Assembly (NCBI GenBank): GCA_001632435.1
Contig: KV424040.1
Coordinates: forward strand, 1 to 59,250
Source: Calocera cornea HHB12733
Taxonomy: Eukaryota > Basidiomycota > Dacrymycetes > Dacrymycetales > Dacrymycetaceae
Direction of reading: 5' to 3'
DNA length: 59,250 nt
Part shown: positions 30,382 to 55,259 of the stretch, in pieces
Position numbering within the stretch: position 1 is the stretch's first letter
Layout of the letters: every line of letters begins with the position of its first letter
The notes under the pieces: model-generated
The model's database searches: none
What the model was told of the DNA's origin: nothing
Seen by the model: the letters and a program-made list of their open reading frames with translations, nothing else
Translations under genes and position numbers: made by a program

Positions 30382-30405
30382 TATGGAAAGCGGGAGTGAA
30401 CAGCT
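30382..30405 (+). repeat. left terminal inverted repeat
   Basis: Begins TATGGAAAGCGGGAGTGAAC. Pairs with 54878-54901 in inverted orientation with one mismatch (C/G at position 11). Beyond it, GAGACCC..GGGTCCCGGA at 30438-30459 is shared with the right end. Confidence 0.92.
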
Positions 30406-30710
30406 CGTCAGCGCCCTATAACCCGCGTCTAGGAACCGAGACCCGCTCAGGGTCCCGGACGTATTTTCTTAGACCCATACCGCATTTTATACTCCGCCTT
30501 CCTCCATCCATACCGGTTATCTCGGCAAACACATTCCCTTATCGTACTCCATTCCAACACTTTACTTTCCGTTCAACTTTGACTTCTTCCATCCTCATAT
30601 TATGCGTATTATATCCCTCTATCATACACGATGTTTTTCTTAGTATTCGTGTCCACTCTTCCATTTTTCCAGCCGCCTCTTCACAAATGCCCGACTTTCT
30701 TTAACCGCCT

Positions 30711-32542
30711 CTAAATGCTCTTCCGCCCGTCTCCACACTCCATGTGTCTTCCCTGCAGTAGGAAAGTGCACGTAGGGGCCTGGCCAAGAGTCTCTTCACC
30801 TCCACTATGAAGTGCTCTTCTCCTCTTATCAACCTTCAGTCGCAGCAAGAATACTTTCGCTGGGTTTAGTGGTTCTGGCTGCTTCTTGATATCGAAGAAC
30901 GTCACGCAGGTCAGATCCACGCACTCTAGTTCGGGCAAGAGACAGAGCTTCATCATTTGTTGACTTTCCCTAAGACCGATGCCCCACCCTCTACGAATTG
31001 GGTACCCGTCCAGCCAAACTTCACTGCTAAGATGATCCACCCCACTAAACAATGCGTCAGTCCATCGCTCCCTTCGCCAGACCACCAACTAACCAACTCC
31101 GGCCCCGATCCATACGCGCCATCTCCACACAGTTCGGCAGGTGACGGCCGTACCTTCGTAGATGTTCCTGGCGACGTTTGAAAAGAAGAAATCTCCACGC
31201 ATCTCATCAGTGATTGCGTAATGCAATCGTCCGAGCCGACGACCCCGCAGGCTACGCATATAACGGCGACCAGCATACCCCAGTTGACGCCAAACTTCCT
31301 TGCCGCGGGCCGCACCCTGCTGTACCTCGATAGTGCCGATCCACTGTCTTAGGAGACCATTGCGAAGCCCGATCATATCTTGACGCAGATCGTACTCCTG
31401 CCAGTCTGCCGCCGACGCCGTTGGAGGTGGTGTGTGCTCCGGAGGTTCATTGAGAAGTGCGCGGGCCGGCCCAAGTTCCGCTGGTACATCATGGGGAGTG
31501 TACATAGTCTGCTCATACCATCAGCATAATTAGATGACCTCCGGCGACCCGCCCCCTATCAACTCCGTTAAGGCTGCGACAGCGAGAAAACGGAACTCAC
31601 ACCCAGACGTCCATCACGCACGGCCGCATCCACCGCCACCCCCATCCAACTGTCAATGTCATCTCCTTGCAACAGTGCTTCGGCAGCTGGTTGCCAGAAC
31701 TCGATGGCGTCCAGGTTGAAGCGCCTCATATGTGCTTCACGCTCATCGTTTGTATCTGGAGCAAGCGCGGCCGGCGGGTATGTCATCGCAGATGTTGCCA
31801 TTGGTTCGTCCTGTGCCAACATCAACGGCAGAAGATCGCGTCCCAGGACGTCTTCATCCAAGTGGTGCATCCGCATTGGCCGAGTCAAATCAGTCGCCAA
31901 CGGCTGGCGAGGTAGCACCTGTGCAGTATCTGAATCTGCCTTCTGCGACCCAGTCCGCAAAACTGCCTCTTTGTCATCCACGATCACCGCCGTTCTTTCA
32001 TTCTCCGTCGGTGCCATCGCAGAAGTCCGTTCGCGCGGATTGAATAGCAGAGTTGGGTTACGTAGATTTCGGTCATGAGCGCTCGGGTCCGTCAGCGCGC
32101 GTCGAGGAGGCTTGCGGTTATCGTTCGACCTGCGTATATCCATAGGCCAGTCCACGCGTTGCGCATCCTCTTTTGAGACCACCACCACCTCATTCCGACT
32201 GTCGGTGGCCGATAGTAGAGCATCCGCCGGCGCTCACCCCGTATCCGTCCGTGAGGCGGTCGCCATGTCTTCAAGGGGTATGAGCACTTCATCAGCCGAA
32301 CTGACGTCGATCAGGTCGTTGTCATCGTCGCCATTCGACAATGCCCAGCCGTGGTCGGTCGGATTGTTTGCATCGCCCCAGTCCTCGGCACTACCGATCT
32401 CCTCTCCAACTGCTTGCATGCGCAACCCCCCATCCTGCTCCCCTTCCGCCGCCTTGCTCGTGTTGGCGATCCGGGCACCACTGGCGGGTTCACCACCTTC
32501 TTCCTTCCCTTCATCTTCCCCCTCAAGCCTCCCTTCAACCAT
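30711..32542 (-). CDS. unknown acidic multi-exon gene of the giant element
   Basis: First minus-strand gene from the left terminus. It starts at ATG 32542 (MVEGRLEGEDEGKEEGGEPA). Exon 1 is acidic, with DDDNDLIDVSSADE. A donor near 32234 (GTGAGC) leads to 32188-31568 (HLDEDVLGRDLLPLMLAQDE, FNLDAIEFWQPAAEALLQGD), then 31505-31089 (ADWQEYDLRQDMIGLRNGLL, GYAGRRYMRSLRGRRLGRLH) and, after further introns I could not place exactly, 31088-30711 (LCLLPELECVDLTC, LNPAKVFLLRLKVDKRRRA). The segments have protein-like composition and consistent order. No family is recognised. Total would be roughly 450-500 aa. Confidence 0.5.
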
Positions 32543-33212
32543 CTACACACAGCTTGTGAGATACAGGCCGTATTGACTGGCCAGTGGTATCATGTATGCG
32601 TGTGGTGGTCGTAGTCGTGAACTGAGTGGCAGGCACGCGCATCAGCATCCGTCCTTGATTAAACGGGAATGACCACATACCTAAATCACAGTCCCTAGTC
32701 ATCGCATTTGGCGCCCTGTCCTTCTTAGTCGTAGATACTCCATCGCCAATGTTAGCTTACACTCACATTCTGAAGGGCCATGCAGTCATTGATACCCTCG
32801 TTCGAGGAAGCTGCTGTGCTGACGGTCGTAGTTTGTCAATACACTTCAGAGTACCCTTCCCGCCTCTCCTTCCAGAGTATTTGTCAGTAGCCTCAATTCC
32901 ATTTCAGTCAGTTGTTAGTACTTCGTCATTGTGAACACCTTTTCACATCGCTGTTGGACCGATGGGTGTGCGGACCTTGATCTACTCGACATTTCCTTAG
33001 CACCCTGGGTCAGCGCGTACGTCACATGACGTCTAATGGATGCTGAGCTGGCCTTCCACAGCGGCAACGGACTCAATCCCCTATCCCCCTCAACTCAGTA
33101 CTCAACCACCACCACATACGACGGTTCTCTTTAAACCTAGATTTCGACCTTAGCCCATAATCTAGTAAGCATTGTTCATCTATTGTTCTTTAAGCAACCT
33201 TCCTCATCCGCA

Positions 33213-34499
33213 ATGCAGACCCGCTCTTCAAACTCGAGACGGTGTTCTAATGCAAGTCAACACCACTGGGGGACAACAGTTGTTGAATACCGATGGACGT
33301 GCGTTTACCATCTTACCTTGTCGGACTACCATGTTCATTACATTCCAGGACCAGGGGGCGATTGTCTAGGCCAACTTCCCACTACCAACACTCCTGACAG
33401 TCTTACGTTCGTCAACCACAGTGCCATTGGCCCACTGGACCACTCGAACCACAATAACACGGGGACGGTGGCATCCACCGGCCATCTGGGTGCCCCCAAC
33501 CAGCCGCCCGCGCTTACCCCCCCCCATCGCCCTCTCCCACTCCATGGTGCCACCAAAGAGGCCTCGATCGGTCCTGTGGAGTTTCCCCAGCAGCCCTTCG
33601 ACGTTATGTCCCTGCATCGCCTTATTCTATCCAACGGCGACACCCACGAAACCTCCACCAGCCCAGCCGCTTCCGCCGAGCAGCCGCCCCTCCTTATCAT
33701 GACCAATCCACCCTGCTCGGCCAACAGCAAGGCAAACGTCGTCTCCGTTGACCCTGTTGAGACCGTTCTCCCGCGCCGCATCTCTCCCCAACAGCAGCAG
33801 GCAGGTGTACGTACTTCGGCTCCCCTCCGTGCAGCCGAAGAGACTCATCCAATGGCGCGACACTCTGACTGCACTCTCCACCATCAATACCCTCCTCCGA
33901 GTCACGCACGCTCCCTCAGTGATCCTCCCCGGCGATCCATCGAGAACTTGGCTACCTACCCTGGATTAGATGCTTTGAGGGCAGCTGCTCTCAGCGCCAA
34001 CCATTCGTTGTCGCTTGCCCACATCAACAACGCACCTCCAGGTTATTGTTACGAGGATGTCGAACAAGGTACCATCGAGAACGATCTTCGCCCTCCCCCA
34101 TATCAACTTCCTATGGCAGTTCAGGCCCGTGGGCCGGTCGATTACAAAGACAAGGCGAACTTTGACGTGTTCGACACTGATACCGCTCCCATCTTCATCC
34201 CTACCGCGTCGTCTACATTGACCGCTCCTTCGGACGCCTCGCGTCCGGATCGTCCCACTGTCATGCCTTTCGGTTTAATGACTCCGGACGAGTACGCGAA
34301 GATCAAGAGGGCTAAGGCCGACATCGCCGCGCGACGTCGTCACCGCTTTACCAGGCAAATAGAAGCCACCAAGGGCGGTTACCATTGGGTGCCACCAGAC
34401 GATTCGCAGGAATGGCATCAGGATAGAGCCGCTTATCAAGCGTCGTCTCCATGGAGTACGTGTTTGGGTTGGTTGACGTGTATGGGCGGCCGCCACTAG
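33213..34499 (+). CDS. 428-aa Pro/Ser/Thr-rich protein, unknown
   Basis: Open frame from ATG 33213 (MQTRSSNSRRC) to TAG at 34499; the longer frame has no ATG upstream. Residues 60-270 are Pro/Ser/His-rich and disordered. The last 130 residues are more structured (PYQLPMAVQARGPVDYKDKA, FGLMTPDEYAKIKRAKADIA and a basic ARRRHRFTRQIEATKGGYHW segment). An intron in the first 150 bp cannot be excluded. No signal peptide or transmembrane segment. Function unknown; cargo of the giant element. Confidence 0.5.
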   Translation: MQTRSSNSRRCSNASQHHWGTTVVEYRWTCVYHLTLSDYHVHYIPGPGGDCLGQLPTTNTPDSLTFVNHSAIGPLDHSNHNNTGTVASTGHLGAPNQPPALTPPHRPLPLHGATKEASIGPVEFPQQPFDVMSLHRLILSNGDTHETSTSPAASAEQPPLLIMTNPPCSANSKANVVSVDPVETVLPRRISPQQQQAGVRTSAPLRAAEETHPMARHSDCTLHHQYPPPSHARSLSDPPRRSIENLATYPGLDALRAAALSANHSLSLAHINNAPPGYCYEDVEQGTIENDLRPPPYQLPMAVQARGPVDYKDKANFDVFDTDTAPIFIPTASSTLTAPSDASRPDRPTVMPFGLMTPDEYAKIKRAKADIAARRRHRFTRQIEATKGGYHWVPPDDSQEWHQDRAAYQASSPWSTCLGWLTCMGGRH

Positions 34500-34919
34500 T
34501 GTACGTATTTAGGCAATAGCGACCCCATAAATGGTCCGGATCCACGTGCATTTGTAACTTGCTGTTGTAAGCCTTACACTACACTCATTTCAAGTCGCTC
34601 GTTCTGGTGTATACTGTCCCCGTCTAGCTGTCCGTTCTCCACATCGTCCAATAACCGGGTTAATACATTTCGACTCTTTCTTGCTCTCATTTTAGTTGCC
34701 CTTTGGGTTCTATGCTCGCGTCATCTGCAACTTTGCTCTTTCCCCCGTTACACACATTGGGGTTTGCCAATTCTCCTATATCTTACGCTCATGTCAGTAA
34801 CTCTTTTTGGGTCCAACTTATCCCTCCCTCCGGTCCTGCAGTTCCTTTTGGCCATGTTTGCACAATTCCCCTCTTACACATTTCCACGCTTCAACATTTC
34901 CACTTTACACATAACCAGG

Positions 34920-35205
34920 TTAACCGATTTCCAGGTTTCAACATTTCCAGGTTTCATCATTTCCAGGTTAACCGATTTCCAGGTTTCATCATTTCCAGAT
35001 TTCAACATTTCCATGTTTCATCATTTCCAGGTTAACCGATTTCCAGGTTTCATCATTTCCAGATTTCACCATTTCCATGTTTTATCATTTCCAGGTTTCA
35101 ACATTTCCAGGTTAACCGATTTTCAGGTTTCATCATTTCCAGATTTCAACATTTCCACGTTTCATCAATTCCAAGTTTCATCATTTCCAGCTTTCAACAT
35201 GTCCT
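34920..35205. repeat. 16-bp minisatellite, about 17 units
   Basis: Consecutive 16-mers of the form TTTCAWCATTTCCAGG, alternating with TTAACCGATTTCCAGG at intervals of three to six units, so there is higher-order structure. Looser copies continue to about 35400. The array lies about 4.5 kb from the left terminus. Confidence 0.93.
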
Positions 35206-35470
35206 CGTAATTACTACAACCATTCAGTCACACTTCCGGGGGATCTCTTGCCCGTATCCAGGTTTCCCTTTTCCAGGTTTCCGCGTTTCCACACCACTCG
35301 AGGTTCAGACATTTCCAGGTTCTAACATTTCTACTTTACACATTTCCAGGTTTAACCTACCGATTTCACCAGGTATCACATTTCCAGGTTTGCACATGTC
35401 CTCGTAATTTTTACAACAGTTCAGTCGCACTTCCGGGATATCTCGTATCCAGTGTGTGCCTTTCTTCCAA
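35202..35470. repeat. direct duplication of about 70 bp
   Basis: GTCCTCGTAATTACTACAAC at 35202 and GTCCTCGTAATTTTTACAAC at 35397 each lead into TTCAGTCRCACTTCCGGG, then ATCTC and CGTATCCAG. The two copies flank more TTTCCAGG-type repeats. A duplicated block next to the minisatellite. Confidence 0.75.
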
Positions 35471-35844
35471 GGTTCCGTTTTTCCAGGTTTTGCCTCTCCT
35501 ATATTATTCGTGTCGACTCGCAACTATACCAGCACCCACTTGACGGATGTTCAGCCGCGTCAACACCCCTTTACCATCTGTTAGAAGTGTGATGTTCTCT
35601 TCTGTCTCGCCTGCCACCCCGGGGCCCTTCCTTCACATCTACATCCGGAACTCTGGTTCAGCTGTGTGCATCAGGAAAAGGTATGGGGCTTCTTTCAACA
35701 AGTCAACAGGGTTCAATGTCATTGTTGTGCGTTCATAGTTATCATTCATTTCTGTTTCTTTGCCAAATCCATGATGATCGCATCCTGCAACCCAGTCTGA
35801 TCAACTACCACGTTCTACATATCCTCTCCCTCTTTTCCCTCGTG

Positions 35845-36207
35845 TCACGCTACAGCGGCTTTCCCACCTGTTCTTCTGGATCGGTTCTTATGAGACCCTG
35901 GGTTCTTCTCCAACCCGTCCCTCTTCCTATCTGCGGCGGCCTTCCTTGAACCTGACTTCCCGCTTGACTGCATGCTTGACTCGTTGACCTTGTTTGCTGC
36001 CTTCATTGCTGACTTCTTGATTCCAAAGACCTTACGGATGCGCTTCCAAATCGTCTTCTTATCTAGCCTAACGAGAGCCGTAGGCTGCACTCGTTTAGCT
36101 GCCGAGGACGCGCTTGAATACTCGGAAGAATGCGTCTCTTCTTCGCTCTCCCTTTCCTTGTCATCGTCTTCCTCTGCTGCTGCTGGTTTGATTTCAGGTA
36201 CCTTCAT
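35845..36207 (-). CDS. 120-aa charged protein, unknown
   Basis: Frame from ATG 36207 (MKVPEIKPAAAEEDDDKERE). Acidic start, then a central segment IWKRIRKVFGIKKSAMKAAN with amphipathic, basic character, then a Lys/Arg/Ser-rich end. It may be one exon of a longer gene. No family. Confidence 0.4.
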   Translation of the reverse strand: MKVPEIKPAAAEEDDDKERESEEETHSSEYSSASSAAKRVQPTALVRLDKKTIWKRIRKVFGIKKSAMKAANKVNESSMQSSGKSGSRKAAADRKRDGLEKNPGSHKNRSRRTGGKAAVA

Positions 36208-36349
36208 GTTGTTGTACTTTCGAATCGGGACTGTCCACCATATCAGCTCTGTCCATAGGCACCTTGCACTTATCTCTCACCTTGTTGCATCCGATCTGTA
36301 CGCATAACGCAACTAACCCCAGCGATCGAACAGTTGGTGCAGTACTCCA

Positions 36350-39300
36350 TCAATGCCGGTTGGACGCATACCTCCTTGACCCAGTTTTCCGGATTCGACA
36401 TGTCCATCGACCTTGCTTGCTTTTGTTGACAGTTTTGGCAACGATAGATACCATGCTTCCACTGTTCACAGTGTTGAATGTAATCCTCGATCCCACTGAA
36501 GACACGCTTACCACCGTCAACACCTCACCCGGATGCGTCACCAGCATACTCCCAATCCTTCTCAAATCTTCTGCCTTCAGCTCCGCATAGGCTATCTCCA
36601 CTGGAATCACCCGAGATCCGCAGTTAAGGTCGTCGGCCTCTGTCCAATGGCGCAGTTTGGTTCTACTCTTCACCGTACGCAATGCTGGCGTTGCCCGTTG
36701 CTTGAACGTCTTTCCGTTGTAGTATCCGTCCAACTCGGGTGCGTTCCGTTCCGGATACTCCAGTGGGTGGTAGTACGCCTGTCCTCCGTTTGCTTTCTTC
36801 GGTCCAGTTTCTTCATCTTCTGAAGAGGCTTGCGACTCGGGGTTCCTTGTTTCCCCCTCTCCGTCCATTGGATCATCGTCCTGTTCTTCGTCCGTTGAAT
36901 CGCCTTCCTTTTCCCGTTCTGGAGGTAGTTCCGATACGCGTTTGGCAGCTTCCTCTTCTCCCTCCATGGGCTGTTCATCCTCTTCCTCTTCCGACCCCTC
37001 GCTCGATCCATGCCGCTGTCGGATCCTTGGCACATTCAGCACTTCTTTGATCGAAGACCGTGTCGCGCCCCGCCGTCCGTTCCGCCCAGCTCGTTTCTGC
37101 TGTTGACCTCGTGCAGGAGGGCCGTCCTCAGTCTCATCCTTGTTGCCTAGCGTAAGATCCAGATCCGCCGTCAGGTCGACTTCCTCTACGTGCCGTGCCT
37201 TTCTATTTGCTTTCTTCTTTTCCGATTGTGTTTCCGGATGGTGACCTCTTCGCGGGGGACCTTTTGATGCTTCAGGAGCACCGGACTGATTCATATCCCC
37301 CAGCACTGGTCTTGATGATGATCCCGCCTCTGTCGACGGTAACTTAGCAACCTCTGCTCTCATCGGCATGTCCTCATTCGATGCAGTAGGCAAGTCGGAA
37401 TGATTATGTCCCGTTTTCTTGGGCAGGATCTCGAAACGTACTGTGTTCGGCGATGGCAGTGGCTCTTCATCGTCGATGTTCGATGCAGTAGGCAAGTCGG
37501 AATGATTATGTCCCGTTTTCTTGGGCAGGATCTCGAAACGTACTGTGTTCGGCGATGGCAGTGGCTCTTCATCGTCGACGTTCTCAGCGTCCAACAGCAA
37601 GGCCGCCGCAGCTTGCTCTCCAAGATCTGAACTTGCCAGGTGGGTGGTGGCCGGCTCGCCTCGCTGATCCTCCAACGCCGCATTCCCAGTCTGCCTCCCA
37701 CGCTCGTGTACTACAGGCGGGCCAGATTTCATCCGGGTCGGCATCGCGTTCCCGAGGGTTGGCTCGTTTGGTACCTCTCTGTGGGCGGTCGAGGATTGGC
37801 CGCTTGCCAATGGTGGAAGCCGTCTCCTGGTAGGTTCTCGGGTCTGATTATCGGATCCGGCAGACACACCTGGATTGATGCGTGTCGGGTTGGCGGTCGG
37901 GCGGGTTGGCTCGTTCGGTCCCTCTCTGTGGGCGGTGGAGGTTTGGCGGCTTTCCGATGGTGGCAGCCGTATCCATGTGGATTCTTTGGAGTGATTTCCC
38001 CCCTCGACTCCACCGGGCATGTCACGAGAAACATTCGTCCCCGCTTCTTGTCGCTGCTGATCATTCTTGTTCGACTCTACGTCATGTGTGACTTTGCGGA
38101 CATACTGGCGAGAAAGTGTTATAGGGCGATCAGGAGCACTCCCAAGCGCCTGGGCGTGACTGGCTCGAATGCGTCGCGGGATACGGCATGGATCTGGCAG
38201 CTCATCCTCCAAGTTTGATCCTCGTACTTCAGCCATGGCATACGCTTGCGATAGCAGCTTCAGAGCCTTTTCGCAGAACTTGTCCCCCGCCGATTCGGCC
38301 GTCATCATGTCAAAGGTAGTAAAAAAAATGCCCTTAACCAATCAGTCCTGTCCCAGAATCATTCACTACAACTCACCACCCAAAAAGCTGCTTTCACAAC
38401 GCGCTCAACGTCAGAGCAATCTGTCGCATTTATTGCAGCTCCTATTTTCCTCTCCCACAACCCTACGTCCAAGTAGGTTCTGTCCAGCGGTGCCAATACA
38501 GGATCCACGGCACAGCGCGACACTGTGTCGCTGGGGAGAGATTCCAGCAGGAGGAAGTCCGCTGAGATGGGATGCCACCGATCGCTACGACCTCCAATCA
38601 GCCCTCGCACCGTTTTCATGAGCGACATGAGATTCTGCTGCATCAAGTCGTTCGGCCACACATGATTCGCATAACCATACACAAGGTATTGGCATTGTTC
38701 GATAATCAGATTCGGTCAGCCGAGGTGCCTTATATGCTCTCACCCATCTGTTCGTGATGTGATCCACATACAAGTACCCGGATATAATGTGCTTGGGCTT
38801 GATCACAGTGACGTTCACGGGGACGTCTTCGAGCAGACCCTTGCCGTATCGGGCAGCCAGACAGCCCTGAATATACGCGTGTCTTGAATCTGAGCGTGCC
38901 GTCACCCAGCTTGCTGACTTTCCCTTCAAACGGACCGCCTCTGGGGCCCGTACCCATATCGAACTTGTTTGGCCTAGCGCAAACCTCTTGAAGTCGTCGG
39001 GCATGTAGCTTGCTCCCAGGAGCGTGTGCTCCTGACGCACATCGTAAAGCCATAACATGCGACTCGCCACCACCGCATGCTGAAGTAGCCGACCCAGCAA
39101 TACCCCAGGCCACTCAGGCATATACAAAGCTCTTGCACTGCGGTGGATGAGATTCTGTCCTCAATCAGGGCGGCGCAACTTCAGTCTCAACAGGCACGTA
39201 CCCAGATCTTGCCGTGGTACACCCGAAGCCACATGTGTTTGGCGCGTTCCGCGGGAGTGAAAGGCGGAATGTCTCCCGCTTGGTCCAGGGCTCTAATCCA

Positions 39301-39927
39301 GAATGCCCCGAACATAGTCTCCAGCCTTGCGGACCAACGCAGAACGGGACGGTTGATGCCTGCTCGAGACTTGATTAAAACCTGTAGTCTTCCATCTACC
39401 GTCAATACACGGTGTGGTGTTGGCGCGCTCCCCGGCCTGATGTCGTTGTAGCATTCAAACGGCTCGAAGTACTGGTTTGGGAGTTCTGCCACGTTCAGTC
39501 CCTTCCCTCTGCCGATCGGCGGCTCATAGCCTCGTTCGTACGTTGTGTTGCCGAGGCTCAATACTTCATTGATCTTCACACTGAGGCTTGGTGGATGGCT
39601 ACCAGACATTCCTATGTAGAAGTAGAAGCTGATAGCTGGATTCTAGCGTAGCCATCAGCACATTGAGCGTCTGACTCGGCGTTCACGATGCACCAGCAGC
39701 TCCCCTCGCATCGTTATATCCTCTCGCACCCGTAGCCAATGCAAGTCCGGGTCAGTCCCACTCAGTCCCTTCAGCTCGTACAACAGCTCCAGGTATTCCT
39801 TCATGATAGGGGCAAGTTCACGGGCGACTCGACGGTGGACGTCAGCTTCGGTAGCTTGCGCGAAAGTAAGTTCGATTAATTCTGCAGCGGCACGCTTCCT
39901 TTCATGCCCATCCGCATCTCCTTCCAT
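36350..39927 (-). CDS. large multi-exon gene of the giant element, unknown
   Basis: Coding pieces run right to left: 39927-39655 (start MEGDADGHERKRAAAELIEL, helical), 39609-39187 (PNQYFEPFECYNDIRPGSAP, HRVLTVDGRLQVLIKSRAGI), 39127-38585 (LLQHAVVASRMLWLYDVRQE, HIISGYLYVDHITNRWVRA), 38682-38359, and a long last exon from about 38300 to 36350. The last exon is a disordered, acidic region with a 34-residue duplication and ends in a compact segment (YYHPLEYPERNAPELDGYY, GSRVIPVEIAYAELKAEDL, VLTVVSVSSVGSRITFN). Precise splice sites were not all resolved. About 1,050 aa in total. No known domain; the conserved-looking second and third pieces suggest an enzyme or structural protein. Confidence 0.5.
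37381..37584 (-). repeat. 102-bp in-frame tandem duplication
   Basis: 37381-37482 and 37483-37584 are nearly identical and encode two copies of a 34-residue unit containing DDEEPLPSPNTVRFEILPKK. In frame, so the protein stays open. Near-identity of the copies points to a recent event. Confidence 0.95.
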
Positions 39928-40261
39928 CGTATGTCGAGATACTATCGTGGCGAATCTGTTATGGCAGCGTCGATCAACGATCAATCTATTAGCGACTCTG
40001 TCGTCGGGATGGTCATGTACAATATGAGTGCCGCAGTACTACTGGATCTGGAGGACTGGTTGATGATCGGGTGGCTGAGCACGGATGCAAAACTAGAGCC
40101 AGGTATATAGATCGGTGCGACCCGGTCAGCCAGCGGGGGAGCCAACCCCTGAAGCTTTCATTCCCCAACCCACTTGCAGGTGGCCGCCCACTATCAGCAC
40201 CATAAACCGCTCCAGGTTACCATGAAGCACAAGCAACCGCTGTCGTTTCGTCCAGCTTGAA

Positions 40262-42322: not shown

Positions 42323-42478
42323 CCAGTTCACTGCGACTCACTCTGTACTATGTAGTGTATCAGTCTAATGCAAGCCAATGCTTCTGTACGACCCTTCACG
42401 CTTTGGACCTCATAACGGTATCACTATCTGTTGCACGGTATCACTATCTGTCGTATCTAGACTACATGTAAGTGGCCC

Positions 42479-44579: not shown

Positions 44580-46575
44580 TATGCTGGGCCCGGGGGAGGT
44601 ATGATCTGGAGAGTTAAGCTCCACACGCTCACCCGGGGGTGGACGGCAATCTGCTGACTATCAGAGAATGCCGATGACCCGAAGCAGGTACTCACATTAT
44701 CTGGATCCAAACCGTGCACTTCGAGACATGACGGATCCTCCGCCCGAGACAATGCCACATACACCTGCCCTGTGATGCATCAGCGATGACCTCCATCACC
44801 AATGGCTGCGACACACACCATACGCGAAAGCACCCTGGAGGTGAAGGATGAGTCGTTTGAGAGTAAGACCTTGTGCTTTGTGGATCGATAAAGCGTAGGC
44901 AACAAGCAAAGGGACCTGAACAACGATCAGTCTTCAGCACCAAGAACACTGGGTCGATCAACACACTTGAAGTCTGCTGCCCCAACCGCCCCAGATATTG
45001 CGGGTTGTGAACTCGACGGGCTCGATTTGGACTTGTTGAGTCACGGTTCCTTGGTGGGACTTGAACTCGACGATGGGTAGAAGGACGTCCTCGTGGTGCA
45101 GGTTGAAAGAAACCTGCTGAAATCCATCTTGATCGGCAAGCTCCAATGCAAGGCCGTAGTTGCCTTTGGCTCGGGCCCACTGAGCTCGCGTCAAGAAGCC
45201 AAGGACACGGCCCATGCTCCCGTTCACCAAACCAGTATCGTTACCCAAGGGTCTCAAAAGCATTACTTGGGCTTCCGGCTTGAGCACCAGGTCGGAACTG
45301 ACTTGCAGCAGAGTATCGAGACTATCGCTTAGCTCGCCCGACTCGTCGATGGAGCGGTACGTTGCCGTCATCCCAGATAACTGTTCGATTTTCTGGGCAT
45401 TGATGTTACGGGCTTGAAAGCGGTAACAGCATCTGATAGGATGTCAGTTGCGCTTGCGAGGTCGATGGCTCATGCTGCTTACAGTTCCATCGGGGAGATG
45501 CGATCGCCATAGCGCACTTGCCGCTTGAGTAGTCGAAGCCTTTCTTTAGTACGGGCTGACGGTTTCCTGATGCGTACTTGAGCCAGCATATCTACAAATC
45601 CTGCCCTAGCGTCAGGATAGAAACCGTCTTTACAAAGGTTGCATAGGCTCACTTTGATCCTTCTGCCTTTGGACGAGCGTCAAGGTAATCGACCGTTGGA
45701 TGCAGGTCTTCCACATTGTGCCCTCAAATGCCAACTTGGGCACATCTTCTGTGGATATCGGGGGCAATTGAAAGAAATCACCCGTGATGACGAGCTGGAA
45801 CATGCATGAGGAACTGGCACTTGCCAATCAAATGATATATGCACTGACTTGAATACCCCCAAAGGGCCGCTGGTCATTCCTCACGAATCTGGCAACGCGC
45901 TCGAGTTGGTCGATGAACCAACACTGCACCATTGAGACTGAATACATGAGATGCCAAGCCGATGAGCGTCAATTAAGCACGTACTCTCGTCGATGACAAG
46001 GACCACCGCATCTTGTATGCGCGATTGAGCTTTGGGGTTGTTTCGTATGGAACTGAGCCACTGGCGAGATCCGCCATAGCCGGCGCCCACTCCTGCCCAG
46101 GAATGGAGAGTCATGCCCTGTATCTGCTCAGCAGCCATGCCAGTGGGCGCTGTCACGCCGACAGCGTCGACGCCGTGTGCCTGGCAGAGTCTGCGGATGA
46201 TCTCTTTGAGGAGAGTGGTCTTGCCGGTTCCTACCGTCGCAATGAGCACAGGTGATACTTCCACGACGATGCTCACCCACCTGCGGATCCCGTGAAGAAT
46301 AGATTGACGCCCTGATCCACCAAGTCCGCAATCGCTTCTTGCTCATAGGTCAGCTCCAGGGGTGGGACGTCGATCGGTGCGTCGGTAGCCCCGCTGTCCT
46401 CCATTGGGATGTAGGGTGGAGGCCACAACTGGGCATGGCCTGGTGCCCACTTCGCCCCGATATCTCCATACCATTCCGAAGAAGCGGTGCGCGCTGGTTG
46501 TTTTTCTTTCAGAGTTTTAAGGAGGTGTTGCTGGACATTTTCAGAATGCAATGAAATGGGCGGCTTGGACACCAT
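44580..46575 (-). CDS. PIF1-family DNA helicase
   Basis: ATP-dependent 5'-3' superfamily 1B helicase. Start at ATG 46575 (MVSKPPISLHSENVQQ). After removing introns the core motifs appear in order: LTYEQEAIADLV and Walker A GSAGTGKTTLLKEI (split by an intron), APTGMAAEQIQGMTLHSWAG, Walker B VVLVIDEISM, QLVITGDFFQLPPI, LTLVQRQKDQ, the FVDMLAQVRIRKPS segment, ARNINAQKIEQLSG, ALSIHKAQGLTL, and GQVYVALSRA near 44770. All boundaries checked (for example GTAAAG before TTG-GCA at 45638, GTAAGC...ATCAG at 45490-45440) keep the frame. No Helitron Rep domain is fused. It probably assists element replication or repair during transposition. Intact, unlike the surrounding fossils. Confidence 0.92.
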
Positions 46576-46821
46576 CTCCGTTCAAGACAACAATGAACAT
46601 CGAGCAGGCGCGGTAGACCAGCTACTATCCGTCGATAGCAGGAGTATTTGCCTCCGGGCCGGGTGCAAATCACTCTCACGCACCCAATTGGACCTAACAA
46701 TGGGCGGAAGTGATCGTAGGGGTCGATTCTCTGCCCTGAAGGCCCTCAAGCCATGCTCGTAACGCCAAGCATCGTGGACACATAGTCGAAGTGAAAAGTG
46801 ACATTCCAGTTCAGCTAAAGC

Positions 46822-47088
46822 TCAGGGAACAAGTGGATTCCAAGCAGTGTCTGTGAGGTCCGGCCTAATTAAATCATCAACTTCTCGTATCATCAAACCT
46901 TCGGTATCGGGTGAAGACGTGTCAGTGAATGGCACTGCATCCATAATGGGTAACTCCGACTCCGAGTCTTGTACGTCCGCTTGAAGCTCCATGTGCTCCT
47001 GTTCAATGGAGAGCTCTATGGCGCTGTGCGATGCAAAGGTGTAAACAAGGCTCTCGTTTGCGGGGCCCGTAAGAATGAGTTGTTTCAT
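46822..47088 (-). CDS. 88-aa acidic protein, unknown
   Basis: Frame from ATG 47088 (MKQLILTGPANESLVYTFAS) to stop, between the integrase stop (47121) and the PIF1 start. Rich in Asp/Glu/Ser (QDSESELPIMDA, DTSSPDTEGLMIREVDD). Could be a small independent gene or a misassigned exon. Confidence 0.4.
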   Translation of the reverse strand: MKQLILTGPANESLVYTFASHSAIELSIEQEHMELQADVQDSESELPIMDAVPFTDTSSPDTEGLMIREVDDLIRPDLTDTAWNPLVP

Positions 47089-47120
47089 CGCTGAATAGAC
47101 CGGCCAAAAGTTAGACTTGG

Positions 47121-48607
47121 CTAGCTTGGGAGATCCCAGCTCTGGTTCCAGAATCTGAGCATGGCCGGATACGATGTTGAGAATACAGGCTTACGTCGAT
47201 ACACACGCTGATACTCGGTCTCGAAAGTCGGAGGGACCAGCTCGAATACGGGATGGTCACTTGGAGCGTATATATCTTCGACAGTGCAAAGTTCATCTTT
47301 GGAGACGTGGATCTTACGGCACGTATCAATAAGCTGAGTAACATGTGACACCAATCATACCTTGAAGTTTTTGGCACCGTACCTCGCCGGATGCTCGAGG
47401 ATGTCATTTGGAATGCCCACAGGGAGAACCTTATTCTTGTCCGCGCGAGGCCTGCTGGAGTTGTACATGTGGACATACTCATCTAGCTTCCTCTGGAGAA
47501 ACGGAACGGCGAGGCGCCGAAACAAGTATCTATAGGAAATGGTAAGCAAGGTGCTAACTGGGAGAGGGTAGGCGACGGACTTGTCCAAAGGGTCTTCTTG
47601 ATGACACAACCCAGCAGAAACCCCTTCCTGAAATAATCTCTCGTATCCCGGGCTGAATTCCCTACGCATTTGACTCCACTTTCCCTCAGGCTTGATATTG
47701 GTGTGTCCCGGCTTCCACTGATGCTGAAGCGTGCCAACGAGGGAGGGATCGAGAAGACGGTGTAGGAAGGAATGCCCGTTTGCGATGCCGTTATTCTCAG
47801 AACCCCAGTCACTCTGAGTAAGGAGGGGAATCCCTGAGCCTGAGTCAATAGAAAGAACAGGCTGCTATTGGAAGGCTTACCTCCATAGTTGCGAACGGCT
47901 TGAAGATAGTATCGAAAAATGAGCCTGGGATTACTGTTCGTAAACCAGACGTTGATATACAAAATGGCGCCAGAGAATGCTTCCACGCCAGTATGTAGCC
48001 AAAGACCGTATTTGTCACCCCACTTATCATGTTGATCGAAACAAAATACATCGAATACACCGGCCGTCCAGAAGTTCTTGCGCTTCAGTCGGTGGCCCTT
48101 GCGCTGTCGAACCTCTTCTTGATGGTAGAGCCGATTATATTCCGCTACAAGTTGTCTGCGAAACACGTCAGACGTGGACAACAAGCGGCAGTTGGTTGTG
48201 GACCCACCGAGGTACGCGCAAGTTGAGCGTAGAGCGCAACCAATCTTGTGTCCGCTTGACGCCCGGGGGTTTATCGTCCCTCTCGTAACGGATGGCCTTG
48301 ACATGTTGGGCGATCGTGTCAATCGTGTGGGATTGCTGACGAGTCCCAAGCAGGCCCCAAGATAACCGCCGCCGTCGAACGGTGTGTTTACTAGTTTAGA
48401 GGAGGTGAGCGATGACGCCCAATATTCGATCGACTTAGCGAAGGTGCATACTCACCCAAGAGTCCAGCCATTCTTTGCGGCATCGACATCCTCTAACACA
48501 CATTGTACGATTTGTACATCGCTGTAGCCGTACTGAAAATATTTTGTGACGAGAGGCTTGAGAACGTCGTCCGGCACTGCAAGGCGGACAGCGATGGGAT
48601 GAGCTGG
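47121..48607 (-). CDS. RVE-type integrase/transposase of the giant element
   Basis: Predicted recombinase. Exons right to left: about 48607-48456 (HTH-like, LVTKYFQYGYSDVQIVQCVL), 48390-48208 (TVRRRRLSWGLLG, TQDWLRSTLNLRVPR), 48155-about 47878 (LKRKNFWTAG, VFCFDQHDKWGDKYGLWLH), about 47835-47593, about 47530-47354 and 47354-47121. Introns are 40-66 bp, and checked joins keep the frame. Catalytic candidates: Asp in FCFDQHDKWG, Asp in LLTQSDWGSENNG, Glu in IKPEGKWSQMRREF. The fold and HTH order match the rva_4-like integrase family of Agaricomycetes. The N-terminal exon (possibly ATG 48716) is not settled. This is the best candidate for the enzyme that cuts and joins the TIR ends and makes 6-bp duplications. 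Confidence 0.88.
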
Positions 48608-48812
48608 CTGCAAGCGTCAAAGAGAAGGGGATCGCACCACTGGGGAGGTGTTGATTGGATCGACGCTTGACTGGGCCGGCCGAAGACCTGTGAGATAATA
48701 TTACACTGGATGCCATGGGGACAACAGGTGAGATGAGGGGATATGGATGGGGAACACGGGCAGGACAAGGCTGTAGACGGAGTCGATGCGGTGATCGGCT
48801 GGAAACGGTCTA

Positions 48813-49740
48813 ATGTTTGCCTCCGGCCGCAATGGTACCGTAAGATTGACGCGTCACGAGCAGGGAAGCTGTACCTTCCGGTCATCTTTGCCTGATGAAT
48901 CGGTGCAGGTTGCTCGACCGAATTTTCCCTTGGTGACAAATATTGACTGCGACGCAGAGGCCGGTGGCAATCTCTCGGTGATGGAGTGTACGGTATGTCA
49001 ATGTGCACACTGCGGGTTTCAGGAATTCGATGACCTTGCCCGATGCTCAGATCGCAGTGGGCAAGGAAGCTGCGTGGAAGGATTGATAGCGGGCGCTGCA
49101 GATTTTGCGGCTGAGATCTACGCCCCGCAGTTTGGAAGGACGTCTATAGGGATGGCAACGAGCGGCAGAAGGTGTACTTGACCAATGAACGGATGAGATT
49201 GTTGATCCCCAACAGATGAAGAATATTTAGGGAAGAAACGCCACAGCGGAAAGAAGTCCGGAAAGCTGTTCGCTCCGGCTTTCCTTCCGAAACAACCCAC
49301 ATACAGGTGAGCCCATCACTCAAAGAAAGTGCGAAACGCGGTGTATTTGACAGGAGACTACTGTAGACATTGGAAATGGGGCGGGACTGGCTGCCATGGA
49401 TGCTGCGGGAACTTCGGGTGGTGGTCAACGGATATTGGGACAAGGTTGCGCCACTTCATTGGCACCGGGCTTGATGCGGGTATCAGCGGTCGGTCTCCTC
49501 CGATGGGCGGGAATTCGACCGTCCTAGATAAGGAAAAGGCGTCCACGAAGGAAAAGAAGGGGAGGAGGGTTGAACGGAAGCATACAAGATGGTGCGTTGG
49601 AGACGAAACCGGCCAAAACGGACCTGAAGCTGCATCCTGCATCTTGGTGTCTATCAGAGATATAAAGCGAAAGTTGCTTAGCCTGGAAACTACGACCGGC
49701 GTCGCAACCTTTCATTCCTGGATAGGGGGGCATATTTGAA
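48813..49740 (+). CDS. uncertain multi-exon gene upstream of the alpha-kinase
   Basis: Plus-strand coding-like pieces: 48813-49181 (LTRHEQGSCTFRSS, EGLIAGAADFAAEIYAPQFG), 49206-49300 (EEYLGKKRHSGKKSGKLFAP, ending at a GTGAGC donor), 49329-49739 (ending FHSWIGGHI). Divergent from the integrase gene, with about 200 bp between starts. May be a separate small gene or 5' exons of the kinase gene. The second piece contains the internal copy of the right terminus. Confidence 0.35.
49256..49284 (+). repeat. internal copy of the right terminal repeat
   Basis: AAGCTGTTCGCTCCGGCTTT at 49263-49282 plus CC matches 54877-54898 at 21 of 22 bases, and the seven bases before it match at five. Same orientation as the right end of the element. 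Such a match by chance in 25 kb is very unlikely. It ends before the last three bases of the terminus (ATA), which differ. Confidence 0.85.
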
Positions 49741-49761
49741 GAGGTCGACCCATTGACACAG

Positions 49762-52296
49762 ATGGACCGTGCTCCCGGCAATGACACAGCGACCGGGCTC
49801 AACGGAATGCTATTGGCCCCTGCTGCCATTACGTATATTGCGAATCATCCGGTCTACTGTCGACGGGGTGGACAATGCCTGTCAGCCCCAGCGTTGAATG
49901 GATTGATCGAGCTAGGCGGACAGTATCAGCACATCACCGATGGCGCCAGCACGATTCCAGTTTGTCTACGTTGTTATGAGTACTACAAGGCCAAGGAAGG
50001 AACCACGATGCACTCGACTGCGATCAGGGCACCTGCTGAGCGAAGCTCGGTGGGTGTGAGTCGTGATGCGGTAGCCTCGCAACGATCCAGCGGAGGCTAC
50101 AAGCGGGGTGCGTGCCATGATGTGTGCTATACTTGGGAGATTTAGGAAAACTCACGATGTGATGATGCGTAGGTATGCGAATGCCAGTCACGAGTGTTGG
50201 AGATCTTAGCGGAGTGGGGTCACGTCGCAGTGGGGACAGTGGGAGACCCGCTAGGGGATACACTTCGGAACACCTGCATTATACCGAAGAATTCGCAAGA
50301 CGGTCCCGACAGGCGTATGCTCGGGTCCTACCGGAGACGATGTTTGTTTGAGCAGCTATCCACTATTATGAAGACGGCAGACCAGGGTCTCGTATCTACA
50401 AGGTGGGTGCAGGAGACAGTACGAATGGAACCGGATGCTGACGATTGAGATAGCCGAATCTGGAGGATAAGATTGAACTACCAGCCACGAGCACACTGAC
50501 GGAGATCAAATCGGCCATGATGTGCCTGTTTCAGCGCCGTTGGATGGAAGTCACGAGGGGCTTTCCGTTCACCGCAGATTGCTTCGAGCTGCGAGGGAAG
50601 GATGCTATGGACTTCGAACGCTTCCCGGACAATGAGCCACTGTTCTACCGACAATGCTTTGGGCCACCACGAGGGAAACCACGAGGGGCTGAGACCGTGT
50701 TTCTACGCAGTAAGAACTTTGACGTCCGCCTCGTTATGTCTTGGTCCACCTACTGCGAAGTCGAGGAGCATCGTGAGAAAACGAGCCGCCGAATAGGCGA
50801 CAACCACCATACGGCAGAGGCAACGTCACTCTCCGAACTATTCCGTGGCAGCGCTTACAGGGACGGGCGATTTGTTGAGCAGGAGCGTGGAATAGATGGA
50901 CAGGCCAGCCTGACTGTTTCGAAGAAACGGGCGGGGCGAAACCCAGTAGGTGACGACTATGAATGTATCTCGATGCGGCTAAGTGTCATGAAGGAGAGCG
51001 ACAATGAGACAGAATGTCCACCATCCAAGAGAACTGTATCAAGAGACCGAAGCCACGAGCGAGTGGAAGGGGGAGAGGTAGATGTTGGAGACATTCGCGT
51101 GGCGCTATTAGGGAGCGGCGCGTCCGTGAGCGAGCGGAAAGCCCCTACAGGTACGCTTGATGTCGAGGGGATGATGAGAAAATACTGACGACCGATAGGG
51201 GTGTTCCGAGATATGGGCCATTTCCTGCCTACCCCAAAGGTGGATTTCGGTTCACTTGTTAAAGATCGGTGGCGATTCGATGTGGATTGGATCCAAAATG
51301 GCTTGTTGGCTGAGATCCGCATGGACAAGAGGCTGGAAGAGATGTTGGGAGAACCAGGATCCATGAAGACGGTGCACCCCGGTACAATAGTTCTACATGA
51401 AGCCATCGATCACGTGGGTAGGAACTCTCCTTCCACATTCGCAACGGGCGTACGGACACGGGTAGCGTTGAAGCGGTGGTACATTTGCGAGGGCCCCAGC
51501 GCGACGTTCGACTTGGCAAGGGTTCTCCGAGTCAGTAAAGGAGAAGAAGAGTGACGCTTGGCTTGCGAGGTAACGAGCTTGATGTGGGCGGAGAGTATGC
51601 TTGACTTGGTGCGGCAAGAGATCAAGGCCTTCCGAGGACAAGGGACGACCAGCGGCATAGGTTGTACGATCGAGATACCGTCCGTTCGATTCGTGCAAAG
51701 TGGACTATTCAGAGTGACTCAGGCTGGAGGAACGAAAGACAAGAAGAAAACACGATCAGGATCAACTTATTTGGTCGAGGAGATGATTGAGGATGTCGCC
51801 AAAGGGGGATTCGTCAAGTATCTCCACAACTCAAGTGCCATTCCACGTATGCTGAGCGGAGAAGAGGGAAGAATATCGGCATTCTTGTCTTTCAGTCAAC
51901 ACGTTCAATTTGTCAGGACGGGGGGGCTCGCGTACATATCAGATTATCAAGGTGAGTGTTTCAAGATGGTGTTGCAATGGTCGTATTATTGATGTTGGTT
52001 AGGTGCAGGAGGTCTGTTGACAGACCCGCAGGTGATAACGAATCCGTACGTGGAATAAAGCTCAATGATTGATTTTTGGCACTAATGGCCTGCGACACAG
52101 TTGCCTACAAGTGGAATTGTTCGGCAGTGGGAACGTTGCAGCGGCTTTTGAAGCGTTTCCCCAAGAGCATCCATGTAACGATTTCTGCAAGGCATTTGGT
52201 ATGACATCCATGCGGCCGGCGCCAAGGACGTCACAAGAGCGGTCCGGGGGAGTGGGAACACTGCCTGATGATGAACCAGCAGAGCCATCTGCTTGA
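49762..52296 (+). CDS. alpha-kinase with N-terminal Cys cluster
   Basis: Start proposed at ATG 49762 (MDRAPGNDTATGLNGM). Residues 25-85 hold a likely zinc-binding cluster: VYCRRGGQCLSAPAL and IPVCLRCYEYYKAKEGT. A variable middle part follows (50194-51160). The kinase domain runs from about 51200: TGVRTRVALKRWYI (candidate ATP-binding Lys), GSTYLVEEMIEDV, VKYLHN, SFSQHVQF, YISDYQG, then across an intron (51951-52003) GGLLTDPQVITNP, and across a second intron (about 52047-52100) ELFGSGNVAAAFEAF and HPCNDFCKAFGM. The DYQG, LTDPQ, FGSGN and Cys-x3-Cys features are the alpha-kinase (MHCK/eEF2K) signature, including the zinc-binding end of the fold. Predicted Ser/Thr kinase; substrate unknown. Middle exon borders are approximate. 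Confidence 0.85.
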
Positions 52297-52850
52297 GGAG
52301 TTCCAGGGGAAATGACGGGTATGGGTTCTAGTTTGTGTTGAGAGCTCTTGCGTAGGTCCATCGGTCCTGTAGGGACCGCGGTATTTTACCTTTCCAGATA
52401 GCCGTAATAAAAAAATTCTTGTAAAAATATTTGGTACGGCGGGGAAATGGAAGGACAAGGGTAAGTATTGAGTCATTGAAAGTACTAGGTAGGTCGGGGA
52501 CAATGGTGAGTGGCGCAGCAAATATGGATGTACCACACGTCACTTATTAGGGAACTGATCACAGTTTCACCGCTTTAGGAATTTAGGCATCACAGTCGGA
52601 TGATGAGCAGGTTATCAGGTTATGAGGTATTGATGTTTAGACGTTTTAGCGAATCGATGTATTGGTGTGCAACGGAGGTGGGCCAACCAACTTGAACCCT
52701 GTGAAGGTGTTGAATGAAGTAATTGTGATCTCAACGGCTTCATGGCTTGACGATGTCACCATTCCACTGTTTCAGCTTTTAAGGATTGGGCAATGTCTTG
52801 GGACCACAAGGGGGTGTGGGCCAAGCAACGCTGGGAATAGGTTGAATAAA
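52297..52850. other. non-coding stretch
   Basis: Follows the kinase stop. AT-richer with short, low-complexity text. No gene seen; it likely contains the kinase 3' end. Confidence 0.4.
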
Positions 52851-52856
52851 TATGTT

Positions 52857-53290
52857 GAGATTTCGCGGTTTCCCGATTTCCTGATTTCCTGATTTCCCGA
52901 TTTCACGGTTTCCTGATTTCCCGATTTCACGGTTTGAACATTTAACGATTCGACGGTTCTAGGTATTGGGGCTACCCCGGGGGTGGGCTAACCAGCCCAG
53001 GGAATGGGTTTAATATAGTAATTGAGATGTCACGGTTTGACGGTTTTAAGAAATCATGATTTCACCAATTCATGATTTCACGAAATCATAATTTCACGAT
53101 TTCATGATTGGATGATTTCGCGATTTCATGATTTCATGATTTCATGATTTCATGATTTCATGATTTGATGATTTGATGATTTGATGATTTGATGATTTGA
53201 TGATTTGATGATTTGATGATTTCATGATTTCACGATTTGATGATTTGATGATTTGATGATTTCACGATTTAATGATTGGGTCATTTTATG
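52857..53290. repeat. 8-bp minisatellite near the right end
   Basis: Long run of 8-mers of the form GATTTCMY and TTTGATGA, interspersed with GGTTTCCT and TTTCATGA units. The cleanest block is at 53160-53220. It resembles the 34.9-35.2 kb array in T-rich strand, ATTTC core and a period that is a multiple of 8. Lies about 1.6-2.0 kb from the right terminus. Confidence 0.92.
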
Positions 53291-53401
53291 TACATTGGGG
53301 CTACGTCAGGGGTGGGGGGACCAAACGTGGGAATAGGTTTAATAACGCAGGGGAGATGTCACGGTTTCGCGGTTTTACAGTTTCACGGGTTCACGGTTGG
53401 A

Positions 53402-53683
53402 GATGAAGCTAGTTTATGGAAGCAGTTCAATGGCTTGCCGGCGCAGGAACATGATTGGAATGTGTCCTTCTCTCAGGCTGACTATGTGTCGACACTCAAG
53501 ACGTTGATGGGTGACAAGGCCAAGCTGAAAGCTTGGGGGACCCGGCACTTCACATCCAGCAGCGCGGTGGAAGGTGATTACGTAGAGGACGTCCGGAAAG
53601 GATGGATCTTTATTAGAGGGAAGCTGGGCGCGTGGATGATGGCTGTCTGCAGTGCCGGAGAATGTACACAAGGGGAATGCTAA
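53402..53683 (+). CDS. short coding remnant, unknown
   Basis: Plus-strand stretch ending at TAA 53683 with segments LPAQEHDWNVSFSQADYVST, LKAWGTRHFTSSSAVEGDYV and RKGWIFIRGKLGAWMMAV. Composition looks coding; no clear ATG because the frame runs back into the minisatellite. Possibly the last exon of a gene whose start was lost to repeat expansion. Confidence 0.4.
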   Translation, partial: DEASLWKQFNGLPAQEHDWNVSFSQADYVSTLKTLMGDKAKLKAWGTRHFTSSSAVEGDYVEDVRKGWIFIRGKLGAWMMAVCSAGECTQGEC

Positions 53684-53813
53684 TGATAATGTAATGGATG
53701 TTGGACGGCACGGAGAAAGAACTTTGTGCAGTAAAAGAGGTGAATTGGTAACAGAGGAGAACGGAGTCACGGTGGCAATGGTAAGTTTAAAAGCCACGTT
53801 ACCTGGTTTGAAA

Positions 53814-54331
53814 CTAACGCCGAAGAGGAGGATTAGGGAAAGCAGGGGCAGACAACGCCACAAGGGAGTGTAGTTGCATCTCAAGACTGTTAACATCGTT
53901 TTCCCAGAGTTGGAAAAGAGCAAGAAGTTCAGATTCGTGGAGAGCAAAAAGATCAGCCTGGGTGCGAAGTGCCTCAGGGAACGAGTGGAGTGAAGAGACA
54001 CGTAAAAGTTGATCGGCGTCGGCTTGAGCGAAGGAGTGCCGTGTGTGTAGCAGACAGAGCTCTTCATCCATGAGCTGAAGGAGTTGCGCAAACTCGGCAG
54101 CAAGGGGGGAATTATAGGGCGTGTATTGAAGGTGACCTGTAGAATAATGAGGTTGGAAGCTGTAGCACGGAACAAGTAATGGAAAGGGAACTTACTGAGA
54201 AGAGCGAGGGCTTCTATACAGCGCGAATGAGCTGGTTTGTGAAACAGATAGTGCCAAAACAAGCCATCCTGATTAGACAAAGTGAGAGACAGCACTGAAT
54301 ATAAAAAGGATAGAATTACGGAGTTGTCCAT
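53814..54331 (-). CDS. small helical protein near the right terminus, unknown
   Basis: Start at ATG 54331 (MDNSVILSFLYSVLSLTLSN), first exon to about 54198 (GLFWHYLFHKPAHSRCIEAL). The intron of about 60 bp (GTAAGT...CTACAG) restores phase into SPLAAEFAQLLQLMDEELCL, FAQADADQLLRVSSLHSFPE and LFALHESELLALFQLWENDV. About 150-160 aa, mostly helical, with leucine-rich heptad-like spacing. Frames further upstream may add exons. First gene inside the right terminus, pointing inward. Function unknown. Confidence 0.5.
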
Positions 54332-54877
54332 AACACGGAAGATGAGATGATATAGGTTTGGAGTTAGGATATGAAGGGGTATGGAGAACGACTTGCTGGG
54401 GCCTAAAGACGAGCGCGCAGATAGAACGTAGAGTGGCCGCCGTGGTGGGTGGGTTGATGCCCAGAGGTAGACGGTAAAGGAAGGAGAGATGTCTGTATGG
54501 TGTGGATGTAATGTACGAGTCTGCCCGATAGCAAAACAGGGTGGGCATATGAACAGATGAAGAAAAGAAAAGAATAGTCGAGAAACGCATCCGGTTGAAT
54601 AAGGGAAGAGCTTCATGAAACAGTCACAGGAAAAGAAGGGATGTGGTTCTGTAGGGGTTGCAGAAGGAAAGAGTAGCATGCATTGGGTAAGATGCTGGAC
54701 GCGGTGTAGTCCATGAAGGGCACGGCAGAGGAACTGCTGTTTGAGTTAGAGTCGAGTCGCGATGGGGCACGTGAGAAATGTGGAATGTCATATAGCCGGT
54801 GGTGAGCGGAGGTTAAAAAGGGAGCAAATGGCCTGAGAGGTCTGGTGAGACCCTGGGTCCCGGAGACGCGTCAGGCA

Positions 54878-54901
54878 AGCTGTTCACTCCGGCTTTCCAT
54901 A
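54878..54901 (-). repeat. right terminal inverted repeat
   Basis: Ends GTTCACTCCGGCTTTCCATA on the plus strand, the inverse of the left terminus with one mismatch in 24. Followed by the TTCCAG duplication at 54902-54907. Confidence 0.92.
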
Positions 54902-55201: not shown

Positions 55202-55259
55202 AAGTACTAATGTCAGTCACGCATCAGTCCTGTGTGCAAAAGTTTTGAGTGCCACTGTA

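Follow-up and report, generated by a model that had tools for sequence, protein, structure and literature searches.

A giant helicase-bearing DNA transposon with the marks of the IS3EU superfamily in Calocera cornea

IS3EU/GingerRoot elements have TA..TA termini, target site duplications that are usually 6 bp long and an integrase-like transposase, and in 2022 Repbase held 45 IS3EU families, 17 of them autonomous (PMC10045372). Fungal IS3EU combine 6-bp duplications with TAYGG..CCRTA ends and with a transposase and an alpha-kinase gene in opposite orientation, and the families from rusts and Tuber carry TET/JBP genes (PMC12730594, Kojima 2025). Here we describe a 24,520-bp insert at positions 30382-54901 of contig KV424040.1 of the basidiomycete Calocera cornea HHB12733 (C127 below; other places in the assembly carry handles of the same kind). 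It lies inside a Tc1 transposase gene, and the window, that is the whole stretch of DNA analysed, covers 59,250 nt of this contig. We file the C127 element with high confidence as a giant DNA transposon of the IS3EU superfamily, because its ends, 6-bp duplication, transposase type and divergent alpha-kinase match the published marks; the transposase is placed by these marks and not by a tree holding a reference IS3EU protein.

Unlike the families treated by Kojima, C127 gave no TET/JBP match and instead carries a PIF1 helicase and unknown genes. The word 'PIF1' is absent from the main text of PMC12730594, and the parts of PMC10045372 consulted describe no helicase-bearing member of IS3EU/GingerRoot. 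The DEAD/Helicase_C, PIF1 and Helitron_like_N domains of fungal transposons have been tied to AcademH, KolobokH or Helitron and not to IS3EU; AcademH and KolobokH are DDE lineages that encode a helicase, as C127 does, and belong to other superfamilies (PMC10799480, in part). Among PMC9741609, PMC8955403 and PMC12411881, two papers merely count IS3EU in Ganoderma and Phlebopus and the third concerns deubiquitinases, again in the portions at hand. Searches of the open-licence literature of PubMed Central (PMC) yielded no description of an IS3EU element with PIF1, of a giant IS3EU or of a giant integrase-type DDE element in basidiomycetes. The helicase-bearing giant form is apparently new, while the superfamily itself is known. 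Of the initial annotation's proposal of a distinct basidiomycete family of unclear class, the basidiomycete setting stands; the unclear class gives way to the IS3EU marks, and what seems new is the giant PIF1-bearing form.

The insert, its transposase and its class

The features that define the insert and its presumed core are the following.

30376..30381: target site duplication TTCCAG, left copy
54902..54907: target site duplication TTCCAG, right copy
30382..30405, plus strand: left terminal inverted repeat, TATGGAAAGCGGGAGTGAACAGCT
54878..54901, minus strand: right terminal inverted repeat, 23/24 identical to the left
29800..55212, plus strand: Tc1-type transposase gene holding the insert (parts about 29800-30375 and 54908-55212)
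46828..48583, minus strand: DDE integrase-type transposase with short GT-AG introns; the public protein CALCODRAFT_404512 spans about 47095-48574 and similarity to C2 extends to 46828
49753..52248, plus strand: alpha-kinase gene, divergent from the transposase, with a TGA at 51552-51554

The insert starts with TATGG and ends with CCATA, in agreement with the TA..TA ends of IS3EU and the TAYGG..CCRTA form of fungi. Its inverted ends are 24 bp long with 23 identical positions, and a perfect 6-bp TTCCAG duplication flanks it. Once the insert and one TTCCAG are removed, the Tc1 DDE frame reads ...VWFQQDNEPIHKSKATLRYFQEAG... across the junction; the interrupted Tc1 copy has further in-frame stops more distant from the junction. 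The joined 214-nt flank recurs as four uninterrupted copies elsewhere in the assembly, at C202 (99% over 1-214) and at C252, C66 and C52 (each 96% over 2-214), and five more Tc1 matches reach 72-76% with partial query coverage. The claim of an intact giant transposon nested in a Tc1 gene is thereby borne out.

The insertion is probably recent, because over the joined flank the Tc1 copy that it interrupts shares 99% identity with another one. The observed/expected ratio of CpG is 0.94 in the C127 element and 0.70 and 0.40 in its flanks. This pattern is weak evidence of youth, since the flanks of the related elements C2, C10 and C5 show no CpG depletion (0.92-1.03).

The transposase gene is open once spliced, as the initial annotation had it for an RVE-type integrase. 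The top protein match is CALCODRAFT_404512 from C. cornea HHB12733 itself, which holds D141, D201 and E242 with 40 residues between the second D and the E, DD(40)E. A spacing of 40 or 41 was found in 16 of the 25 listed relatives, this protein included, where the search pattern detected both motifs; in one of the 16 (P0019) N replaces the second D. CALCODRAFT_404512 scores 33.2 bits against the Pfam rva_4 integrase core (curated cut-off 26), and an alternative splice model scores 24.8 bits, just below the cut-off. The integrase was seen only in the spliced protein: Pfam searches of single open frames and of all six frames of the element missed it, and searches of the three forward frames of the C2, C10 and C5 transposase loci returned nothing. 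GT-AG sites and homology, rather than transcripts, underlie all spliced gene models. An AlphaFold model of the transposase has a predicted local distance difference test (pLDDT) of 89 and in structure comparison resembles TnsB, IstA, MuA and retroviral integrases. The overall template modelling scores are low, as expected because one domain is shared. With TnsB, IstA and MuA the common part is the transposase-core fold at 11-15% identity, and these are bacterial systems with other helper genes. A sequence search found no solved structure for the transposase, and no relatives were found in viral contigs. A source name accompanies 24 of the 25 listed relatives, all from genera that we take to be Agaricomycotina.

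We weighed other large elements against this assignment. A six-frame Pfam search of the C127 element returned only PIF1-type helicase and alpha-kinase families. Starships of Pezizomycotina are giant fungal elements with changing gene content and a tyrosine recombinase captain gene. C127, in contrast, combines inverted ends and short duplications with an integrase-type transposase, and no tyrosine recombinase family was matched in its six frames. Neither was Helitron_like_N, and a Helitron, marked by its HUH Rep domain, would have neither the inverted ends nor the duplication.

Mavericks/Polintons resemble C127 in their integrase core, 6-bp duplications and size above 20 kb, and a Maverick that kept its integrase and duplications while losing its polymerase and virion genes might look similar. 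The 6-bp duplication is common to IS3EU as well, so it does not decide the matter. PolB (PF03175) had no match in the element, nor anywhere in the assembly, although the positive control for this search was weak (one of 14 control genomes, below the cut-off). The six-frame Pfam search, taken to E values of 0.1, gave no PolB, protease, capsid or non-helicase-type ATPase family, a search that also missed the unspliced transposase, so that divergent or finely split genes could escape it. The short 24-bp terminal inverted repeats and the small relative C5, which consists of transposase and kinase, also speak against a degraded Maverick. We regard it as highly improbable, in line with the initial annotation, which had set the element apart from Mavericks.

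Bounded copies across the genome

A search with the transposase exon gave 38 genomic matches, which fall at 22 places in addition to the window. The terminus pattern TAYGGANNNNNNNNNNGRACAGST gave 87 exact hits (42 forward, 45 reverse), compared with 0 and 1 for the reversed control. By our reading of these hits, inward-facing pairs on the same contig account for 56 of them (28 pairs), and 31 ends are unpaired. The larger pairs are listed here.

C2: giant, approximately 29.8 kb, with two assembly gaps (1,538 N in total)
C10: giant, 29.8 kb
C25: giant, 26.4 kb
C65: giant, 26.3 kb
C155: giant, 25.4 kb
C127 (window): giant, 24.5 kb
C8, C26, C72, C142 and C260: mid-size pairs, 12.3-13.7 kb
C5: small relative, 7.5 kb, complete and without gaps

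Transposase and kinase hits occur in 11 of these 12 pairs, and C5 has no other matches than these two. Exact target site duplications flank all 14 pairs tested out of the 28, 12 of them 6 bp and two 7 bp long. Ten of the 14 were chosen by the end pattern alone and gave eight exact 6-bp and two exact 7-bp duplications (C8 and C16); C127, C2, C10 and C5 have exact 6-bp duplications from a search that required at most one mismatch. Because terminus pairs carry exact duplications in every tested case, the family and its boundaries are real. The initial annotation had named a lack of further copies with the C127 termini as speaking against the element: an exact second copy was not found, and many relatives share the terminal pattern.

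Some further observations concern the same set. The 7-bp duplications belong to C8 9514-22278 and C16 24883-27073. Sixteen short pairs of 0.4-2.8 kb lack a transposase hit (C7, C16, C42, C50, C57, C68 with two, C89, C97, C106, C113, C119, C121, C124, C172 and C184) and are probably non-autonomous IS3EU; of these, C16 has a 7-bp and C42 a 6-bp duplication. At C78 the terminus pattern marks one end and no pair, and an assembly gap of 3,222 N in this region may hide the second end.

Several findings weigh against our reading of the insert as a mobile IS3EU giant. In the 32.1-Mb assembly the 20-bp end pattern of the C127 element has just two occurrences, one in each orientation; there is no second copy with these exact ends, so the mobility of the C127 subfamily rests on a single insertion. 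The terminal inverted repeats of 24 bp fall short of the >30 bp of the TET-bearing rust families (PMC12730594, in part), a length that marks those families and not the superfamily. One larger pair, C72, has neither a transposase nor a kinase hit. Finally, the alpha-kinase is interrupted by an in-frame stop. It stands opposite to the transposase, the arrangement known from the TET-bearing fungal families, and its TGA at 51552-51554 falls in a conserved region where the C2, C10 and C78 copies have a residue; the gene therefore looks broken and is probably non-functional in the C127 copy. Either the insertion is older than the stop or the kinase is dispensable in cis. On the kinase gene the initial annotation is thus corrected; its view of an element possibly still active is borne out in that the element was probably mobile recently.

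The helicase block and its origin

Between its left end and the transposase the C127 element carries the following genes and frames.

44579..46404, minus strand: PIF1 helicase, 8 exons modelled, 490 aa, with motifs GSAGTGKT, VIDEISM, GDFFQLPP, SIHKAQGLTL and GQVYVALSRA
38591..39642, minus strand: UnkA, at least 2 exons; the majority of PIF1 places in the genome have it nearby
40261..42319, plus strand: UnkB, open frames treated as one multi-exon gene
42482..43420, minus strand: UnkC, open frame with a match in the C62 block
36353..38341, minus strand: UnkD, 663-aa open frame whose N-terminal part matches the C62 block, with a 102-bp tandem duplication (37377-37583, 99% matching)
33141..34496, plus strand: 452-aa open frame without a match in Pfam or in the C2, C10, C5 or C78 region

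The PIF1 gene, already recognised in the initial annotation, is open in the spliced model and its helicase motifs are present. UnkA, alone or joined to UnkD, found no match among 5.8 billion proteins, and an AlphaFold run on its second exon, made without an alignment, gave a pLDDT of 33 and no usable fold. From the C2 and C10 giants, ten long frames were also searched, one of them truncated where a sequence piece ended; the single match obtained was below its cut-off, and we take it as chance.

PIF1 hits lie inside all six giants and UnkA hits inside five, C65 being the exception. The five copies of 12-14 kb have no PIF1 or UnkA hits at a threshold close to some giant hits; since hits within giants are as weak as E 0.0016 and 0.0048, this absence is weak evidence. 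The genome-wide lists of places are lower bounds, and the counts given next hold among the matches listed. PIF1 occurs at 27 places, 21 of which have UnkA within 10 kb. An IS3EU-type transposase lies within 20 kb at six places, and an integrase of a second, strong rva_4 group likewise at six. One of these latter six, C127, is to be discounted, as the integrase in question is its neighbour at 57.7-58.2 kb. At 15 of the 27 places no integrase of either group was detected within 30 kb, so PIF1 genes do in part lie outside boundaries of this kind, an outcome that had been named beforehand as speaking against the element. The binomial values for co-location assume uniform positions and rounded midpoints.

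An ordinary IS3EU of 7-13 kb might have been enlarged by accident through insertions of other elements or of host DNA, with the PIF1 block as a nested passenger and not a lineage. The many PIF1 places without a nearby integrase indicate that the block exists apart from IS3EU, and the C127 block retains the gene order of C62, both of which fit such an origin. The presence of PIF1 in every giant and of UnkA in all but one argues the other way, as do two pairs of giants, C25/C65 and C10/C155. Within each pair the ends match, the sites and the duplications differ and the distance from PIF1 to the transposase is similar, which shows that the giant form itself was carried to new sites. At 74% identity for C25/C65 and 75% for C10/C155 (2.6 kb around the transposase; 427 nt of UnkA), this carriage, as judged from sequence divergence, is not recent. 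Moreover, apart from the site at 49264-49284 the C127 element contains no good internal copy of its own ends, and by our reading none of the Helitron replicase hits is closer than 20 kb to a listed PIF1 place (nearest about 23 kb, at C28). We consider a nested passenger unlikely. A nested Helitron as the source of PIF1 was rejected, as Helitron_like_N is missing from the element and replicase hits from these 20-kb surroundings.

The relationships of the block point in more than one direction. The order UnkD-UnkA-UnkB-UnkC-PIF1 of C127 is kept at C62, and PIF1 and UnkA are on the same strand in both; they are on opposite strands in C2, C10, C25, C155 and several non-IS3EU loci. Fifteen non-giant loci match the second UnkA exon of C127 better than any other giant does, and among the listed matches of its first exon the sole other giant, C25, ranks last. 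Outside the giants, the UnkB part 40964-41683 is found again at 12 PIF1/UnkA places and at C12 (E 0.007), which lacks these genes; the other five giants gave no UnkB match, nor did tblastn against C2 and C10. We computed an UnkA tree of ten loci (five giants, five others) from the 27 UnkA places, with node supports of 42-100%. In it the giant C2 groups with C14, a locus without IS3EU (76% support), so that the five giants sampled do not form one clade. A split with 58% support divides C127, C10, C155 and C25 from the C62 group, which argues against calling the C127 block C62-type. Independent capture of the helicase block is suggested by these patterns.

One reading, which we think less likely than not, is a modular class of giant transposons in which a block of PIF1 and UnkA, in one form with UnkB-D, would be exchanged between integrase backbones. 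C127 would then be a chimera, because its transposase is closest to that of giant C2, while its block keeps the order and the UnkB of C62-type loci, which lack an IS3EU transposase. The odds of such an exchange are lowered by the UnkA tree, which weakly groups C127 with the giants and not with C62. Alternatively, the PIF1/UnkA block might define the giants as a kind of element of their own, which repeatedly takes up different transposases, IS3EU being only one vehicle. The frequent neighbourhood of PIF1 and UnkA would suit this, and so would the appearance of PIF1 near either integrase group and the C2-C14 pairing, which leaves the giants without a clade of their own. Node support is modest, however, the same tree sets C127 with C10, C155 and C25 against the C62 group, and no recombinase was found in 20 kb of C62 (Pfam, six frames at 118.5-123.5 kb and two frames elsewhere). 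A separate kind of element therefore seems doubtful to us. Beside the helicase block of C62 we also observed an F-box match (120383-120901) with a similar-looking frame nearby; the F-box frame had no match in the giants compared.

Movement, regulatory candidates and meaning

Seen as a giant IS3EU, the C127 element is most likely moved by its own DDE transposase, which would act at the TATGG..CCATA ends, release the element or make a copy of it, and insert it into a target cut in a staggered manner. A stagger of 6 bp, occasionally 7 bp, would yield the target duplications upon repair. The core would be the transposase with the divergent alpha-kinase, as in the 7.5-kb relative C5, and the PIF1 helicase block would be acquired cargo added in the giants; PIF1 may aid the replication or repair of so long an element. 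That this transposase moved the element is something we infer, and the same applies to the mode of excision and to any roles of PIF1, UnkA-D and the kinase. The route could be either cut-and-paste or copy-out; bacterial IS3 relatives move by the copy-out route.

Three further features of the element may bear on its movement.

34861..35352: subterminal tandem arrays, period 15-16
52859..53398: subterminal tandem arrays, period 8 and 24
49264..49284, minus strand: internal copy of the terminal sequence, 20/21 bases, between the transposase and the kinase

Subterminal arrays with a period of 8, 16 or 17 are present in the three giants examined for them, C127, C10 (222-271, 3989-4072, 7997-8081 and 29530-29607 of the element) and C2 (29622-29668 of the element), and their units differ. 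They could be binding sites or iteron-like sequences, a candidate role. The internal terminus-like site agrees with the ends at 20 of 21 bases, compared with at most 16 in 20 shuffled queries, and is possibly a putative transposase binding site serving self-regulation. Because C2, C10 and C5 show no clear counterpart of the site, we did not build upon self-regulation. Just beyond the element, an integrase of the second, strong rva_4 group lies at 57685-58247 on the minus strand, in pieces in more than one frame; it belongs perhaps to another element extending rightward.

With six bounded copies of 25-30 kb, this 32-Mb genome shows that large loads can be carried by an integrase-type DDE transposon in basidiomycetes. 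Members of IS3EU, a small superfamily, can thus attain 25-30 kb, perhaps with swapping of gene blocks. They make it possible to test whether movement is by cut-and-paste or copy-out and, as every giant has a PIF1 hit, whether a helicase is required by DDE transposons of very great length.

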